Shown piece after piece: positions 15,902 through 34,012 of a DNA stretch of 38,979 nt. The translations under genes were made by a program, and so were the position numbers. Positions within the stretch are counted from its first letter, which is position 1. Each line of letters begins with the position of its first letter. The stretch covers positions 1-38,979 of the forward strand of contig DZAX01000020.1 in the NCBI GenBank assembly GCA_022729705.1. Direction: 5' to 3'. The DNA comes from Helicobacter cetorum. GTDB taxonomy: Bacteria > Campylobacterota > Campylobacteria > Campylobacterales > UBA6016. The notes under the pieces are model-generated. The model worked only from the letters and a program-made list of their open reading frames with translations. It had not been told where the DNA came from and did not search any database.

Positions 15902-15980
15902 AACTTTTTCCCCTCTCCTGCATTGATGTGTGCAGCTAGAGCCACCCATACCACCCAATATGCGTAAAAAATCTATCTCT

Positions 15981-16059
15981 CCTGCGAAGCAGGTAACTTT
16001 AGGGGGTTGTAGGGACACTTGTGTCCATGCCATGAATACGGGCTTTGCTCATATTCATG
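15981..16059. repeat. Triple hairpin element between converging MFS and nhaD genes
   Basis: Three consecutive palindromes: CCTGC-gaa-GCAGG (15981-15993), GGACAC-tt-GTGTCC (16013-16026) and CATGAATA (16031-16038) / TATTCATG (16052-16059), the last enclosing GGGCTTTGC. No T-tract follows on either strand. It could serve both converging transcripts as a terminator-like block, or be a dispersed repeat. Confidence 0.55.
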
Positions 16060-16066
16060 TTTAACA

Positions 16067-17389
16067 TCAATGAATATTCAAAATAATAAACTGCAAATAC
16101 CAAACCACAAGTGATACAAAATAACCAACCAGCACAGTCCAAGAGAGCTTCATGTGTGACTCAAACGTATATATTCCATGTAGTTTGCCCATGACGCCTA
16201 CCCCAGCGGCGCTTCCAAAGCTGATAAGAGAACCGCCGATTCCAGCTGTCATGGTCACGAGCATCCATTGAGTTATGCTCATATCGGGATTGGCTTTTAG
16301 TATTGCCGACATAACCGGAACATTATCTACAAGAGCTGATAAAAAACCTATGCCGATGTTGACAAGCGTATGGTCAAAAATATCATATAATTTTGCGGCG
16401 TGCGTCAAAAATCCAGCAAAGTGTAGCGCCCCTACGGCGGCTAGAATCCCAAAAAAGAATAGCAGTGTATTATTTTCTATTCTGCTAATCGCTTGAAAAA
16501 TATTAATATTCTGATTGTGTCTCTTTTTTAATGAGTAGATATATAGTTGCAACACCGAAAGCCCAAAGAGCATACCCCACATTGGCGGCAGATGAAGAAC
16601 TTGTTTGCAGACGACGGCTAGGGCTATTGTGGCGGCTCCTATCGCTATAATGGCTTTGCCGCCTTTTAAAATCTCTATATTTTTTGCCACGTCTGGATTG
16701 CCGTCTTTGTAGGGATCAAGGTCTGGTACAGATCTACTAAGCAAAAAAGCCGTCGTAAGCCATCCCAAAAAAGCCGGTGGAAAAAGATATAAGAAGTCCA
16801 TAAAAGCGCCTTTGCCCGCTGTCCATGCCATAAGCGTGGTAATATCTCCAAACGGACTCCATGCGCCGCCCGCATTTGCGGCTACCACGACGTTAATCGC
16901 ACTTGGAACCAAAAACTCTTTATTGTTTTTTTCTATTGTAACTAGCACGGTTGATAATATCAAGGCGGTTGTGAGGTTGTCCGCGACAGGAGAGATAAAA
17001 AACGCCAACGCGCCGGTTATCCAAAAAAGCTCTCGAAAGCTGTATCCTTTTGCAATGAGCTTTGCCTTTAGCGCGTCAAAAACCCCTCTTTCTATAAGGG
17101 CTTCTATAAAGGTCATAGCCACATACAAAAAGAAAAATATCTCAGCAATCTCCAAAATAAGATGCTCTATTTCACGCTCAAAGAGTTTAAAATTTAAGCC
17201 GCTAATAGCGTAGAACACACCCATTAAGACAAACATAAAAGTCCCTATAAAAAGCGCCGGTTTTGCCTTGTCTATGTGATACTTCTCCTCATTGGCAATA
17301 AAGTAGTAGCCAATAATAAAAATAGCGAGCAATACCCATCCAAACGGGTGAAGCGCTAAATCTACGCTTTGTTCTATGGTGTTTGTCAT
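16067..17389 (-). CDS. nhaD: Na+/H+ antiporter NhaD
   Basis: A 440-residue inner-membrane antiporter of the NhaD/ion-transporter superfamily, which expels sodium in exchange for protons. About 11-12 hydrophobic helices are seen. NhaD hallmarks include the SPVADNLTTALILST region (about 133-147), VVAANAGGAWSPFGDITTLM (about 169-188) and SALVDNVPVMSAI (about 350). It starts 11 bases after the ParE-type toxin stop on the same strand, so it may share that transcript. Common in marine and sulfur-oxidising Campylobacterota. Confidence 0.92.
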   Translation of the reverse strand: MTNTIEQSVDLALHPFGWVLLAIFIIGYYFIANEEKYHIDKAKPALFIGTFMFVLMGVFYAISGLNFKLFEREIEHLILEIAEIFFFLYVAMTFIEALIERGVFDALKAKLIAKGYSFRELFWITGALAFFISPVADNLTTALILSTVLVTIEKNNKEFLVPSAINVVVAANAGGAWSPFGDITTLMAWTAGKGAFMDFLYLFPPAFLGWLTTAFLLSRSVPDLDPYKDGNPDVAKNIEILKGGKAIIAIGAATIALAVVCKQVLHLPPMWGMLFGLSVLQLYIYSLKKRHNQNINIFQAISRIENNTLLFFFGILAAVGALHFAGFLTHAAKLYDIFDHTLVNIGIGFLSALVDNVPVMSAILKANPDMSITQWMLVTMTAGIGGSLISFGSAAGVGVMGKLHGIYTFESHMKLSWTVLVGYFVSLVVWYLQFIILNIH

Positions 17390-28117: not shown

Positions 28118-31100
28118 AAAATATAGAAAATTTATTAAACGAAAGAGTCGCAGTAATTGACGGCGCAATGGGAACGGAGCTTCAAAAACTAAAAATTTCA
28201 CCTGAGACGTGGATGGCGGTGGGTTTGGGAGTGGATAACTCCCAAGATAAGCCGTCGCAAGCGGCTTTGCCAGTTGCGACAGAGGCAATATCATATGAGG
28301 GTTGCAACGAGTATCTAAATGTGGCGGCAAAAGATGAGATACGCGGCATACATAGGGCGTATTTCAGAGCCGGAGCCGACATATCAAAGGCAAATACGTT
28401 TGGGTGTCTGCCGTGGGTGCTTGATGAGTATGGATTGTCACATAGATGTTGTGAGCTGATAGCCGAGGGGATAGCTCGCGTCAAGGAGGCGGCGGCGGAG
28501 CTTGGGCGCGAGAATGACGCTTATGCGGCGTGCTCTTTTGGTCCCGGCACCAAGCTTCCTAGCCTTGGGCATATTGAGTTTGACGAGATGAAAGACGGTT
28601 ATGAGCTTTCCGTCGGTGCGGCTATTGACGCTGGAGCTGATATTATACTTTTTGAGACGTGCCAAGACCCTTTGCAGATAAAAGCGGCTCTCATAGGGGC
28701 TGAAGACGCATTTACGAGTAGAGGCGCAAGGCTTCCCGTCATGGTCTCCGCCACGATAGAGATGAACGGTTCGATGCTGATAGGCACGGACGCTAAGACG
28801 CTTGCGGCGATACTAAAGCCTTTTAATATCCTATCTCTTGGCTTTAACTGCGGAACGGGTCCCGAAGAGGTGGCAAAGCATGTAAGAGCCATAAGCGAAG
28901 TGTGGGGCGGACGTATTAGCGTTCACGCAAACGCCGGACTGCCGCAAAATAGAGGTGGCTATACGTTTTATCCGATGAGTCCGCAAGAGTTTGCCGCTTT
29001 GCAAAAAGCGTTTTGCGAGGTGGACGGCGTAGCTATTTTGGGCGGGTGTTGTGGGACTACGCCTCAACATATTTTGGAGCTTGTCAAAGAGGTTAAGGGT
29101 ATAAAACCAAAAGCGGCTACAGGCTTTGCGCCAAATTCGCTAACTTCACTATTTGAGAGCGTTGCGCTTGTCCAAGAGCCTTCTCCATTGTATATAGGGG
29201 AGCGCTCAAACGCTACGGGGTCTAAGGCGTTTAGAGAGCTGCTTTTGGCTGAGGATTTTGACGGGGCTATGAGCGTGGCGTATGAGCAGGTGAGGGCGGG
29301 GGCGCATGTGCTGGATGTGAGCGTTGCGTTTGCGGGAAGAGACGAGCGAAAAGATATGAAAGAGGTGGTTTCACGCTACGCCTCAAAGCTTACATTGCCG
29401 CTAATGCCGGACTCTACGCAGATAGGAGCTTTGGAAGTTGCGCTAAAACTCATAGGCGGTCGCGCTATCGTAAACTCTGTAAATCTTGAAGACGGCGTAG
29501 AGAAGTTTGACGCTGTGTGCGCCTTAGCGCGTCGTTTTGGCGCAGCTCTTGTGTGTTTGGTGATAGATGAGCATGGAATGGCAAAGACAAAAGAGCGAAA
29601 GCTTGAAATAGCGGAGCGGATATATGAGAGAGCCACGACGCATTTTGGTTTTGAGCCATCTGACCTTGTGTTTGATATGCTTACCTTTACGGTTGGAAGC
29701 GGCGATGCGGAGTATTTTACGGCGGCTACCGAGACGATAGAGGCTATTGAGGAGTTTCACGCCGCACATCCGGAGGCTGGCTTTACGCTTGGGGTGTCTA
29801 ATATCTCTTTTGGTCTCTCCAAACACTCAAGAGAGGCGCTAAACTCCGTATTTTTGCACCACGCCGTAAAAGCGGGGCTTTCTACCGCCATCGTAAACGT
29901 CAAAAATACTATGGCTTATCACGCTATTTCGGACGAAGAGATTAGGCTATGCGAAGATTTGCTGTTTAACAAAAGGGGCGGCGGGCATGACCCCCTTGGA
30001 GTTTTTATCGACTACTTTGCGGCGCAAGACGGCGGCGGCGGGGCGCGGGTAAGAGATGATTTGGAGGGGCTTAGCGATGAGATAAAAATTCATAAGCTCT
30101 TAATCGCGGGAGATAAAGAGAGATTGTTGGCTCTACTGCCAATCGCCAAAGAGACAATAGCGGCAACAAAAATCGTCAATGAGATTTTGATAGGTGCGAT
30201 GAAAGAGGTCGGGGAGCTGTTTGGCGATGGGCGTATGCAGCTGCCTTTTGTGCTTCAATCGGCGGAGACGATGAAAGCGGCGGTTGACTTTTTGGCGCCA
30301 TACTTGCCAAAGACGGAGAAAACAAGCCAAACCACGCTAATACTAGGCACCGTAAAAGGCGACGTGCACGATGTCGGCAAAAATCTAGTAGACATCATAC
30401 TCTCAAACAACGGCTTTAAAGTCGTAAATATTGGCATCAAAGCGGATATAGATCTATTCGCACAAAAACTAAAAGAGCACAACGCCGATGCAATAGGCAT
30501 GAGTGGGCTACTGGTGAAGTCCACGCAGGTGATGAAAGAAAACCTCGAAGAGTTAAGAAGGCGTGGGATAAATGTACCCGTGCTTCTTGGCGGGGCGGCT
30601 TTAAATATTGAGTTTGTGCATGAGTATTGCAGACCCTTTTATGATGGGGCGGTAATCTACTCGCGAGACGCTTTTGAGGCGATAACGACGCTTTCGCAGA
30701 TAGAAAAGGGCGAAGAGATTACGATTAGCGTACCCTCAAGCGAGAGAGCGGAGGCGAGAGAGAACGCCAAAGATAAAGAAGTCGGCGAAATAGTCAAGCC
30801 GCAAGAACAAAATCCGCCAACCCCGCCGTTTTGGGGCAGGAGCGTATGGAGCTTTGGCGAAGAAGAAAAAGAGACCGCCTTTACCTGGATAAACCACAGA
30901 ATGCTCTTTAAGGAGAGATGGGGATATAAATCCAAAGGGATGGAAAAAGCAGACTATGAAAGACAGCTGCAAGAGGTCGTGAAGCCCGCATATAAGCGGC
31001 TAAAAGAGCAGTTTTTAAACTCTTTATTTGAGCCTGTGGCGATTTACGGCTACTATCCGGCGAGAGGCGAGGGCGACGAACTGCTGATATTTGGCGAAAA

Positions 31101-31650
31101 CGAGGGGTGGAGCAAAGATGCGGACGCAAATCGCGAAGATATACACGCCGTTAGATGTAGGGCAAACAATGTCTTAGGTTTTCCAAGAGCGCTCAAAACC
31201 CCACGCCGCTCGATACCAGACTATTTCAGACACGACAGACACGACGTAATCGCAATGAGCGTGGTAAGCGTGGGCAGCAAAATCGCAGAGTACGAAAAAG
31301 AGCTTTTTGATAGCGGACGCTACACTGAGTATTATCTTGTGCATGGATTGGCTGTAGAGCTTGCGGAGGCGATGGCGGAGATGGTTCACAAAAAAATCCG
31401 CGCGGAGCTTGGCATACTAAGAGGCGAGGGCGCGGCTTTGGATGAGGTAAAAATGAGCGGTTATCACGGATGCAGATACTCTTTTGGTTACCCCTCATGC
31501 CCAGACCTTGAGATGAACAGAACTCTTTTTGAGTTGCTACGCCCCGAAGAATTTGGCGTGACGCTATCAGAGACTTGCCAAATGGCACCGGAGGCTTCGA
31601 CTAGCGCTATTGTCGTTCATCACTCTGATGCGCAGTATTTTACGGTTTGA
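28114..31650 (+). CDS. metH: Cobalamin-dependent methionine synthase
   Basis: A 1178-residue MetH that moves a methyl group from methyltetrahydrofolate via B12 to homocysteine. Domains in order: homocysteine domain (about 1-340; zinc Cys in LGFNCGTG near 246 and GGCCGTTP at 312-313), pterin domain (about 350-620), B12 cap (about 655-735), B12 domain with DVHDVGKN (His 752 ligand) and SAM-binding reactivation domain (about 890-1178; PARGEGDELLIF, SFGYPSCPD). All key residues are present. Residues 34-60 are an extra in-frame segment with strong DNA palindromes (separate entry). ATG overlaps the pglF stop. Confidence 0.97.
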   Translation: MKNIENLLNERVAVIDGAMGTELQKLKISPETWMAVGLGVDNSQDKPSQAALPVATEAISYEGCNEYLNVAAKDEIRGIHRAYFRAGADISKANTFGCLPWVLDEYGLSHRCCELIAEGIARVKEAAAELGRENDAYAACSFGPGTKLPSLGHIEFDEMKDGYELSVGAAIDAGADIILFETCQDPLQIKAALIGAEDAFTSRGARLPVMVSATIEMNGSMLIGTDAKTLAAILKPFNILSLGFNCGTGPEEVAKHVRAISEVWGGRISVHANAGLPQNRGGYTFYPMSPQEFAALQKAFCEVDGVAILGGCCGTTPQHILELVKEVKGIKPKAATGFAPNSLTSLFESVALVQEPSPLYIGERSNATGSKAFRELLLAEDFDGAMSVAYEQVRAGAHVLDVSVAFAGRDERKDMKEVVSRYASKLTLPLMPDSTQIGALEVALKLIGGRAIVNSVNLEDGVEKFDAVCALARRFGAALVCLVIDEHGMAKTKERKLEIAERIYERATTHFGFEPSDLVFDMLTFTVGSGDAEYFTAATETIEAIEEFHAAHPEAGFTLGVSNISFGLSKHSREALNSVFLHHAVKAGLSTAIVNVKNTMAYHAISDEEIRLCEDLLFNKRGGGHDPLGVFIDYFAAQDGGGGARVRDDLEGLSDEIKIHKLLIAGDKERLLALLPIAKETIAATKIVNEILIGAMKEVGELFGDGRMQLPFVLQSAETMKAAVDFLAPYLPKTEKTSQTTLILGTVKGDVHDVGKNLVDIILSNNGFKVVNIGIKADIDLFAQKLKEHNADAIGMSGLLVKSTQVMKENLEELRRRGINVPVLLGGAALNIEFVHEYCRPFYDGAVIYSRDAFEAITTLSQIEKGEEITISVPSSERAEARENAKDKEVGEIVKPQEQNPPTPPFWGRSVWSFGEEEKETAFTWINHRMLFKERWGYKSKGMEKADYERQLQEVVKPAYKRLKEQFLNSLFEPVAIYGYYPARGEGDELLIFGENEGWSKDADANREDIHAVRCRANNVLGFPRALKTPRRSIPDYFRHDRHDVIAMSVVSVGSKIAEYEKELFDSGRYTEYYLVHGLAVELAEAMAEMVHKKIRAELGILRGEGAALDEVKMSGYHGCRYSFGYPSCPDLEMNRTLFELLRPEEFGVTLSETCQMAPEASTSAIVVHHSDAQYFTV
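28213..28293 (+). repeat. In-frame palindromic insertion inside metH
   Basis: 81 bases (27 codons) sit between the MetH segments SPETW and YEGCNEYLNV, which I expect to be adjacent in homologues. They fold into two hairpins: TTGGGAGT (28225-28232) / ACTCCCAA (28238-28245), and GTCGCAA (28254-28260) / TTGCGAC (28274-28280) with GGC-TTT-GCC stacked inside. The encoded stretch is Ala/Ser/Gln-rich and looks like a flexible loop. It behaves like a palindromic element that can land in coding DNA without breaking the frame. Confidence 0.55.
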
Positions 31651-31682
31651 GCGGGCAAACTAAAACAATTGGCGGTATAAAA

Positions 31683-31907
31683 ATGCAAACCATACAAATA
31701 GACAACGCGGAAATAGAAAATTTTATTGATATGAAATACGGCGAGGACAGGACTACTCTTTTGAGTGATTTTGTGGCTTTTGTCAAGACGGAGATAATCG
31801 CTGCCGAAATAAAAAAAGGGCTTGATGAAGTAGAGCAATATCGTCAGGGTCTCAAAGAGCTTGGAAGCGTAGAGGATTTTATCGGCAAGCTAAAAAGTGG
31901 AAATTAA
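31683..31907 (+). CDS. Antitoxin of a RelE-type pair
   Basis: A 74-residue acidic, helical protein (ENFIDMKYGEDRTTLLSDFV then FVKTEIIAAEIKKGLDEVEQ). It starts ATG 31683, 33 bases after metH, and overlaps the toxin start by 11 bases. The position and size indicate the antitoxin; a Phd/ribbon-helix-type DNA-binding fold cannot be confirmed by eye. Only a weak ribosome binding site is seen. Confidence 0.7.
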   Translation: MQTIQIDNAEIENFIDMKYGEDRTTLLSDFVAFVKTEIIAAEIKKGLDEVEQYRQGLKELGSVEDFIGKLKSGN

Positions 31908-32223
31908 AACGACTGAAACTTTTGAAAAAAGCTTCACAAAGCTCTATAAGAAAGATAAGCAACTACTAACTGAGCTTGAGAAGTTGACTGATACGCTACA
32001 AATAAACTCTGATTTTGGAGAAAGCTTGGGTGGCGGTAGATTTAAAATTCGTTTGCGCAATAAGTCTAGCAATAAAGGAAAAAGCGGCGGCTACAGGGTA
32101 ATATCATACAGAAAGATAGAAGACGTTATTTTGCTTGTGCATATATACTCAAAAAGCGACATAGAAAATATATCCGAAGACAAACTAGACGAAATTATAA
32201 AATCTTACAACTATGGGAAATAA
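31897..32223 (+). CDS. RelE/HigB-like toxin
   Basis: A 108-residue protein starting GTG 31897. TETFEKSFTKLYKKDKQLL, GGRFKIRLRNKSSNKGKSGG then YRVISYRKIEDVILLVHIYS match the RelE-superfamily subgroup annotated as 'type II toxin RelE/ParE' with the Lys-Gly-rich loop. Such toxins cut mRNA at the ribosome. Its stop lies within the first codons of recQ (overlap if recQ starts at 32213), so metH, the pair and recQ can be one transcript. Confidence 0.75.
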   Translation: MEIKTTETFEKSFTKLYKKDKQLLTELEKLTDTLQINSDFGESLGGGRFKIRLRNKSSNKGKSGGYRVISYRKIEDVILLVHIYSKSDIENISEDKLDEIIKSYNYGK

Positions 32224-32224
32224 C

Positions 32225-34012
32225 GTGGTTAAAGATAAATACAAAACCCTAAAAACCGTATTCGGTCACGCCGCCTTTAGGAGTTTTCAAGAAGAGGCGG
32301 TAGACGCTATTACGAGCGGGCGGGATGTGATGATGGTGCTTCCCACAGGCGGCGGAAAGTCGCTTTGTTATCAGCTTCCTTCTCTCTTGATGGATGGTGT
32401 GACGGTTGTGGTGTCGCCGCTACTTGCCCTGATGCACGACCAGATAACGGCTCTTGGGGCTTTTGGGATAGAGGCGGCTATGGTCTCTTCTATGCAGTCG
32501 GCTCGCGAGATAGGCGGCGTGATGCAAAGGGCGAAAGACTCAAAGCTAAAGCTTTTGTACGTCGCACCTGAGAGGCTCAAAAATGATGGTTTTTTGAGGT
32601 TTTTGTAAAGCGTAAAGATAAACTTTTTTGTTGTTGACGAGGCGCACTGTGTGAGTGAGTGGGGGCATGAGTTTAGAGAGGATTATCGGCGGCTTCATCT
32701 ACTCAAAGAGCTTTTTGGCGACACTCCGATAGCGGCTTTTACGGCGACGGCGACGCGCCCCGTGGAGGAGGATATAAGAGGTCAACTAAGACTCAAAAAT
32801 CCCGTGACGATAAGAGCCAAAATCTCCAGAGACAACCTTGTAGTGCAGTCGGCGTATCGGGTGGGCAACGGGCGTGCGCAACTGCTGGAGTTTATCGACA
32901 AATTCAAAAACGAAAGCGGCATAGTCTACACGTTTACCCGCAAGGAAGCGGAGAGTATAGCGGAGTTTCTCACCTCCAAAAACATCCTCTCAAAACCATA
33001 TCACGCCGGACTTCCGACAAGTGAAAAAAACAACGCATACAAAGCTTTTCTAAACGACGAAATCCGCGTAGTAGTCGCCACGATCGCTTTTGGTATGGGA
33101 ATCGACAAGAGCAATATCCGCTTTGTGGCGCACACTTCACTACCAAAAACGATAGAAAACTACTACCAAGAGATAGGAAGGGCAGGGCGCGACGGGTTAG
33201 CCGCACAAACGCTACTGCTTTTCTCCTCCTCAGACATCGCCGAACGTAAAAGTATGATAGAGTCGCAACCAGACTCTGCGTACAAAAAAATGGCGTTTGA
33301 AAAGCTAGAGTCCATGGCAAAATTCGCCTCCTCTCAAAGCTGCCGCCACGCTCTTATTTCAGAGTATTTTGGAGATGAGGGCGTGCCATGCGGCTCTTTG
33401 TGCGACAACTGCTTGGAGCCCGACAAAGAGAGCGTGGATATATCACAGGATTCACTAAAACTGCTATCGGCGGTGTATCGCAGCGGACAGAGATTTGGTC
33501 TGCAATACGTCGTGGATATACTGCTAGGCCTAAAAAACCAAAAAATAGAGCAAAACGGACATCAAAACCTATCAGTATACGGTATAGGCAAAGACAAAAG
33601 CCGCAAACAGTGGCTCTCAATCGGAGATAGACTACTAGAGCTAAAAGCAATAAGACAGGGCGAGTACAGGGTGGCGTCACTAGACGAATACGGCATGGAG
33701 ATTATCAAAAACAAACCAACAGTCACAATAAGAAAAGAGAGACTAGAAGACAAAAAACCAAAAACAACCTTGCGCAAAGAGATATACAAACCAGTCTACG
33801 ACAACGACATCTTCGAAAAACTAAGAGCCCTCAGAGCAAGACTAGCAAAAGATAGCGGCGTACCGCCGTATGTGGTATTTAGCGACAAAACACTCAAAGA
33901 GATGGCGGACAAACTACCGCAAACAAAAGACGAAATATTACAAGTGGGCGGAGTGGGCGAGGTGAAGTTTGAACGGTATGGACGGGAGTTTTTGGAGGTT
34001 TTGGGGGAGTAA
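32225..34012 (+). pseudogene. recQ: ATP-dependent DNA helicase RecQ, interrupted by one in-frame stop
   Basis: The same frame runs through all RecQ parts: Walker A LPTGGGKSLCYQLPSLL, VSPLLALMHDQ, YVAPERL, DEAH box VDEAHCVSEWGHEFREDYR, TATRPVEEDI, motif VI GRAGRDG, the zinc cysteines (SCRHALISEYFG...CGSLCDNC) and a C-terminal HRDC-like domain. It is broken only by TAA at 32606-32608, between LRFL and SVKINFFVVDEAH. CAA to TAA, one transition, would explain it. A GTG at 32651 could restart translation but would lack the ATP-binding motif. GTG 32225 with GGGA ahead is the favoured start; ATG 32213 is possible. No other decay is visible, so the stop is recent, a sequencing error, or read through. 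Confidence 0.85.

Follow-up and report, generated by a model that had tools for sequence, protein, structure and literature searches.

The metH gene of the Helicobacter cetorum DNA analyzed here (contig DZAX01000020.1, 38,979 nucleotides, hereafter the window) carries, in frame, a 75-bp unit of two hairpins. We consider it highly likely that this unit is a mobile palindromic element which enters genes and, once there, is translated into 24 or 25 extra residues, as Rickettsia palindromic elements (RPEs) are. Support comes from the existence of a repeat family, from filled and unfilled sites, from a unit length divisible by three and from the scarcity of stop codons in most frames, with insertions present both in genes of Mu-like phages and in two species of bacteria. 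The features of the window are listed in Table 1.

Table 1. Positions of metH, the inserted unit, its hairpins and one intergenic repeat in the window
Feature	Coordinates	Strand	Basis
metH, cobalamin-dependent methionine synthase, intact, 1178 aa	28114..31650	+	ORF; NCBIfam TIGR02082, 1056 bits, above cut-off
75-bp element, 25 codons, AVGLGVDNSQDKPSQAALPVATEAI, codon phase 0	28216..28290	+	25 codons more than G002; copies; L053 period; model R1, 97.1 bits
Hairpin 1, TTGGGAGT-GGATA-ACTCCCAA	28225..28245	+	Inverted-repeat search, fold, copies; U-A/C-G compensatory change
Hairpin 2, GCC-GTCGCAA-G-CGGC-TTT-GCCA-G-TTGCGAC-AGA-GGC, outer GCC/GGC clamp	28251..28286	+	Inverted-repeat search, fold; 4 pairs changed on both sides, 5 sites
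Intergenic three-hairpin repeat of the cousin family, separate from the element	15977..16073	+	Model R2, 92.1 bits

A 25-codon unit lies in frame in metH

In the window MetH, 27 residues separate W33 from YEGCNE, whereas the congener G002 (84% MetH identity) reads W-GE-YEGCNE, with two residues at the same place. Since these two residues are already present in G002, the net gain is 25 codons and not 27, and the flanks left once the 75-bp unit is removed, W-M-S-Y-E-G, have the G002 length. The ends of the unit were set from its copies and from the 75-bp tandem period seen in phage contig L053. An earlier note on this DNA had described a hairpin element lying in frame in metH with the catalytic residues retained; we confirmed the element, as an exact 75-bp, 25-codon double-hairpin unit, and found the MetH motifs DGAMGT, FNCGTGP and GGCCGT all intact despite the insert. 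The two strong palindromes that the note had placed at 28213-28293 also stood, but the size given there, 27 codons or 81 bases, had to be reduced to 25 codons and 75 bp.

A MetH match was found in 43 of the 60 relatives searched. We fetched 29 relative metH loci, of which 27 were readable at the site (L029 and L042 escaped the pattern), and all 27 displayed only 4 to 9 residues between W and GCNE, versus 29 here. The alignment with relatives suggested by the earlier note thus showed the insert to be absent from every readable MetH rather than a conserved segment. According to matches with PDB sequences, the insert would fall between residues aligned to positions 70 and 74 of 8g3h, just past the first barrel motif, DGAMGT. 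The homocysteine-domain model, a single-sequence prediction, had a mean pLDDT of 48 and of about 30 at the insert, values too low for it to support a surface-loop position; viral_contigs yielded no sequences with which to deepen the alignment.

Single-base changes on the own branch of metH were counted among 462 comparable codons, only where the codons of G001 and G002 are the same; 64 were synonymous and 4 nonsynonymous, giving a site-corrected ratio of about 0.02. Being branch-wide, this count cannot date the insertion. metH is under strong purifying selection, which makes it very probable that the cell uses the enzyme in spite of the insert.

The two-hairpin structure is kept among copies

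The inverted repeats of the metH segment, at 28225-28245 and 28254-28280, comprise the palindromes GTCGCAAGCGGC/GCCAGTTGCGAC (12 nt, 83%) and TTGGGAGT/ACTCCCAA (8 nt, 100%). The segment folded with -33.9 kcal/mol (z = -4.0), and none of 200 shuffles was as good. Common to the copies are hairpin 1, hairpin 2 with its GCC/GGC clamp, an inner CGGC-NNN-GCCG stem and one mismatch. In alignment A3, which held six copies (the G001 copy was left out owing to a MAFFT misalignment, as was the first L053 copy, identical across the unit to that of C46), 98.5% of the cells were paired and 11 changes were both-sided, a number reached by none of 500 shuffles. Alignment A6, with one copy for each of five sites, including G001 and excluding the second tolC copy and L053, gave 97.2% paired cells and 9 both-sided changes (0 of 500 shuffles); these shuffle counts are not probabilities, because A6 was fitted to a structure drawn from these related copies. 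In controls in which the structure was slid, the paired fraction dropped to 25 to 49%. The two-hairpin structure is thus kept among the copies, with compensatory changes in both stems.

On the sense strand, six of the A3 cells form G-U pairs and two are unpaired. As a G-U pair is an A-C mismatch on the other strand, the sense strand would be the one that folds. The portal gene copies of L053 are antisense to their gene, which points, in this small sample, to folding of single-stranded DNA rather than of mRNA. Rfam covariance models run on L125, L006, L007 and L061 returned only a tRNA and no family for the element.

Five copies occupy four sites in the source genome

A whole-genome search recovered four further copies, 84 to 89% identical to the metH unit (E values of 1e-13 to 1e-17), and covariance model R1 found the same five copies in this genome with no additional strong one. 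For an exact 17-mer, the number of matches expected by chance in this genome is about 0.0003, and five copies have its central 15-mer exactly in common. The search for a second copy proposed by the earlier note thus yielded four, most of which lie in other genes and share one reading frame. The four sites are metH, tolC (a tandem pair), a small gene of a Mu-like phage and one spacer, the latter between an ABC ATPase and its permease (macAB-type).

The tandem pair lies within a gene on contig C24 that was assigned to the TolC family by profile match. Both G001 and G002 have tolC orthologs without the element, with 56 query residues facing 5 in each; identities were 65 to 67% and 73% in pieces for G001 and 64 to 65% for G002, and the unfilled site was read in the sequence for G002 and from match coordinates for G001. 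The G001 ortholog (L098, G001:C95:1698-2297) has one TAA stop inside the matched stretch.

The phage copy follows the putative capsid gene of a probable Mu-like prophage on contig C46 (L007); the labels Mu-like, portal and capsid come from our reading of the proteins, for two of which NCBIfam gave no family. In phage L080, about 96 to 99% identical to C46 over most pieces, the unfilled small gene begins MRRVFEITVLRDGKQ. Its C46 counterpart reads MR-LEGSGVDNSRLLPSLAALPVVTEAI-LDIYTK, so that 29 codons are replaced by 25 and 93 bp by 81 bp, in frame. Because this ORF is short, the case is weaker than those at the other sites. C46 also contains near-identical repeats of several hundred bases (L007:1179-1993), with duplicated ORFs ATHTRHYK... 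and QHYIKKGD.../QNYIKKGD....

Copies occur in a second species and in phage genes

An exact 17-mer scan of a species-level genome collection returned 13 stretches, only two of which, L053 and L061, held the whole element. L061 is a contig of Helicobacteraceae bacterium UBA6016 and is the same stretch as G001:C100, from the same genus as the window. Its metH carries a copy after residue 969 (numbering of the window MetH), reading QFLK-AEGLGVDNSQDSHLARSAEETVAM-SLF versus QFLN-SLF in the window. This unit is three bases shorter, adding 72 bp with the frame kept; the 5' end of the G001 gene is missing, the contig starting at about residue 152. metH was therefore hit at different sites in two species of one genus. 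The chance that a single random G001 insertion would strike one of the three genic targets of the source genome (about 6 kb of 2.2 Mb) is about 0.003, by after-the-fact arithmetic; the repeated targeting of metH might be explained by local hopping, by tolerance of the gene or by a second copy already present in the ancestor.

L053, filed as Sulfurovum sp., is a phage contig whose main pieces are about 98% identical to C46. Within its portal gene, two units follow each other head to tail at a 75-bp period, antisense to that gene, whose reading frame stays open; the same portal is without units in C46 and L080. L053 may be a mis-binned contig. Near-identical Mu-like phages that differ by the element thus appear in the source genome (L007/C46), in a Sulfurovum-named MAG (L053) and in an IMG/VR contig (L080), being either host-crossing phages or mis-binned contigs.

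Over 398 genomes of the order, R1 gave strong scores in G000 and G001 only. Matches in G121 and G276 were weak, and G394 was rejected as a carrier since its match looks like the intergenic cousin family instead. Two matches in viral_contigs were both without the rest of the element, no match was found in plasmids, and four 23-nt matches in Salmonella phages (E of 0.7) were taken as chance. In total, eight copies were found at six sites in three records, seven of them (five sites) in open frames and one in a spacer.

The host frame stays open through every in-gene copy

Every in-gene copy is open in the frame of its host gene, and every length change is a multiple of three. One and the same frame is used at the four sense-oriented genic sites (4 of 4). 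The number of stop-free frames out of six was five for the metH, macAB and G001 copies, four for tolC and three for the phage copy; about 1% of random 75-mers reach five or more. As the metH, tolC, macAB and G001 copies are likewise open in frame +1, the shared sense frame is suggestive rather than proof.

An intergenic three-hairpin family is present in the same genomes

A cousin repeat of about 98 bp with three hairpins, with a consensus like ...GCGGGTAGCTTYAGGGGGTTGCAAGGGACATTTATGTCCCTGCCGCCAATACGGGCTTTGCCCGTATTGGCGTATAACATCA, was found in at least 147 copies in the source genome (of 150 candidates scored), 20 in G001 and 14 in G002. With model R2, built from 21 copies of this family, at least one copy was detected at E <= 1e-4 in 58 of 298 Campylobacterales genomes, representing 22 of 81 genera, and 12 of 24 predicted pairs displayed both-sided changes. 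In sampled stretches, most copies lay between ORFs, and overlaps with ORFs were mostly below 10 bases; the larger overlaps, at L111, L114 and L120, may reflect wrong starts. There was no Rfam match for the cousin repeat in locus L125, which holds one.

A third hairpin-rich repeat, CTCGCCGCTAGGCGTAGCTTTAGGGGTTTGGGATGAAATCCCAA, was observed on the phage and macAB contigs (L007:5241-5366, L007:8017-8084 and, on the minus strand, L006:1543-1590); its layout is related to that of the intergenic family, and at L006 it directly adjoins the 75-bp element.

Possible routes of movement and alternative explanations

Mobility was deduced from the comparison of filled and unfilled sites, the copy number in the source genome being low (5). 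Unfilled counterparts are metH in G002, the second metH site in the source genome, tolC in G001 and G002, and the portal gene in C46 and L080. Since filled and unfilled alleles exist at multiple unrelated sites and in both orientations, movement is likely. In the mechanism that we propose, the folded single strand would be recognized by a mobilizing enzyme, most likely a Y1 transposase (IS200/IS605- or RAYT-like) acting in trans, and insertion would make no visible target duplication. The copies that survive would be those landing in a tolerant loop with the frame kept, and phages could ferry the element between hosts. We propose the Y1 route itself only tentatively. Transposition of the IS200/IS605 type, via a single strand, leaves no target duplication, and none was visible at the 75- and 72-bp additions, which therefore fit this type of transposition. 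The source genome has three Y1_Tnp matches (C17, C72 and C48). The C17 and C72 proteins look RAYT-like, with scores of 72 and 61 bits, under the 80-bit RAYT cut-off, while the C48 gene has an internal stop and adjoins an ORF that, from its sequence, appears TnpB-like. The roughly 3.3-kb loci of these three genes (L122-L124) contain neither the element nor the cousin repeat, and G001, which carries the element, had no NF047646 (RAYT) match at E <= 0.001 in a genome that is 84% complete. RAYT matches and the cousin family were weakly associated (33 of 58 genomes with the family versus 100 of 240; P = 0.04, uncorrected for relatedness). With no repeat at the Y1 loci and an association this weak, we rejected linkage to RAYT as proof of the mechanism.

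The element could also have spread with no transposase, by phage recombination or by polymerase template switching at short homologies, which we regard as rather unlikely. AGAGGCAATAT, with which the unit ends, is already present in the unfilled portal of C46 and L080, so that insertion there may also have been guided by homology, or the sequence may be an old scar, and in the phage small gene the element took the place of existing sequence instead of merely splitting it; the metH additions, however, look clean (75 and 72 bp), and neither G002 nor the source genome shows an evident homology of this kind. Two further explanations do without insertion of a translated mobile unit. Strong hairpins within a coding region might be skipped, through removal at the RNA level or ribosome hopping, like the bypassed palindromes of yeast mitochondria, for which Magnusiomyces provides the precedent (PMC6649704). 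Skipping needs neither an open frame nor a length divisible by three, yet the in-gene copies have both, and the G001 copy lost three bases in total with the frame still kept, which makes this very improbable. We give equally little credence to the view that the unit is nonmobile and serves metH as a regulatory structure or as a useful loop of the protein: the compensatory changes do show that the fold is maintained among copies, but the unit also lies in unrelated genes and in a spacer, the portal gene copies are on the opposite strand, metH is occupied at different sites in the two species, and the MetH of relatives lacks the unit.

An additional reading, which concerns origin and is compatible with a mobile element, is that the unit is an offshoot of the intergenic three-hairpin family, moved by the same mover in a REPIN-like manner, the in-gene copies being rare accidents. 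We see this as a real possibility, falling somewhat short of probable. The five next-best matches of R1 in the source genome (L075-L079) are all cousin-family members, and R2, run over 68 kb, in turn weakly finds the coding copies (L006:1464, E of 0.001; L053, 0.03; L007:9893, 0.05; window 28197, 0.06). Both families have the order GGGGGTT or GGAGGGTT, GGGAn..nTCCC, GCC and GGCTTTGCC in common. These cross-family scores are nevertheless weak and could be explained by convergence of G+C-rich hairpins, and the cousin family seems confined to spacers, whereas the element is mostly in genes. A common origin of the two is plausible.

Relation to known palindromic elements

RPEs are palindromic elements of 105 to 146 bp that lie in frame in 19 Rickettsia ORFs, one host enzyme having been shown to be active (PMC2229807). 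The element resembles the Rickettsia and Wolbachia palindromic elements in that short palindromic units lie in frame in conserved protein genes and also in spacers: the repeat is in frame in metH, tolC, the phage small gene, the G001 metH and the portal gene, orthologs without the unit exist in relatives (metH, tolC and portal), and stable stem-loops are kept among copies. The RPE-like behavior suspected in the earlier note is thus borne out by a repeat family in several genes and by its absence in relatives. Unlike RPEs, with their terminal inverted repeats and greater length, the element has 75 bp and two separate hairpins, and it occurs in a different phylum and in genes of phages as well. 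Outside its own group and its phages no sequence match was found, and the 13 stretches returned by the exact 17-mer scan included no Rickettsia record.

Intragenic REPs of several bacteria encode 20 to 30 residues, often as dimers, and are tagged by GTAG or CGTC, RPE-4 and RPE-6 being of the CGTC type; Sulfurovum sp. NBC37-1, a member of the Campylobacterota, has GTAG and CGTC repeats, while the section of that article on intragenic REPs names no Campylobacterota genes in its text (PMC3733652). The element is like these REPs in being a palindrome that codes for 20 to 30 residues within ORFs and in forming tandem pairs, but it has no fixed end tag: the base of hairpin 2 reads CGTC, CGTT, CGTC, CGTC and CATC in five distinct copies, and GTAG is at neither end. 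With REPINs, RAYT MITEs and IS200/IS605 derivatives it shares paired hairpins, the lack of transposase coding and the lack of a visible target duplication, and, as in REPIN/RAYT hosts, Y1 transposases are present in the genome. In contrast to REPIN/RAYT systems, no RAYT gene is flanked by the element, its copy number is low and it is mostly in genes. Contrary to a classical MITE, its hairpins are internal and not terminal, with no target-site duplication visible. Because a defining feature of each is lacking, we did not file the element as a GTAG/CGTC REP, a REPIN or a MITE. We describe it as RPE-like in its manner of working and do not place it among the Rickettsia RPE families.

Coding palindromes are already known as a kind, as are REPs in Campylobacterota; within the open-licence literature searched, no coding palindromes were reported in Campylobacterota. 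It is conceivable, though we would not call it probable, that the Campylobacterales harbor an order-wide superfamily of multihairpin repeats, of which a stop-poor two-hairpin branch in one lineage jumps into genes, those of bacteria and of Mu-like phages alike, in either orientation and as an exact 25-codon cassette, traveling between species with phage. If true, the Rickettsia elements would have a phage-borne counterpart whose insertion can be traced via filled and unfilled alleles. Coding palindromes are best known from Rickettsia, where obligate intracellular life hampers the study of their movement, and we know of no mobilizing enzyme for RPE-1. A Campylobacterota family present in Mu-like phages with near-identical unfilled alleles would allow the insertion step to be defined base by base, and it shows a repeat lengthening conserved enzymes without breaking them.

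Neighborhood of metH

Between metH and recQ, the window contains two small ORFs (31647-32223) that resemble a toxin-antitoxin pair; in G001, recQ directly follows metH. The window recQ (32213-34012) has an apparent single in-frame TAA at about 32606-32608, where the G001 recQ (L061) reads through.
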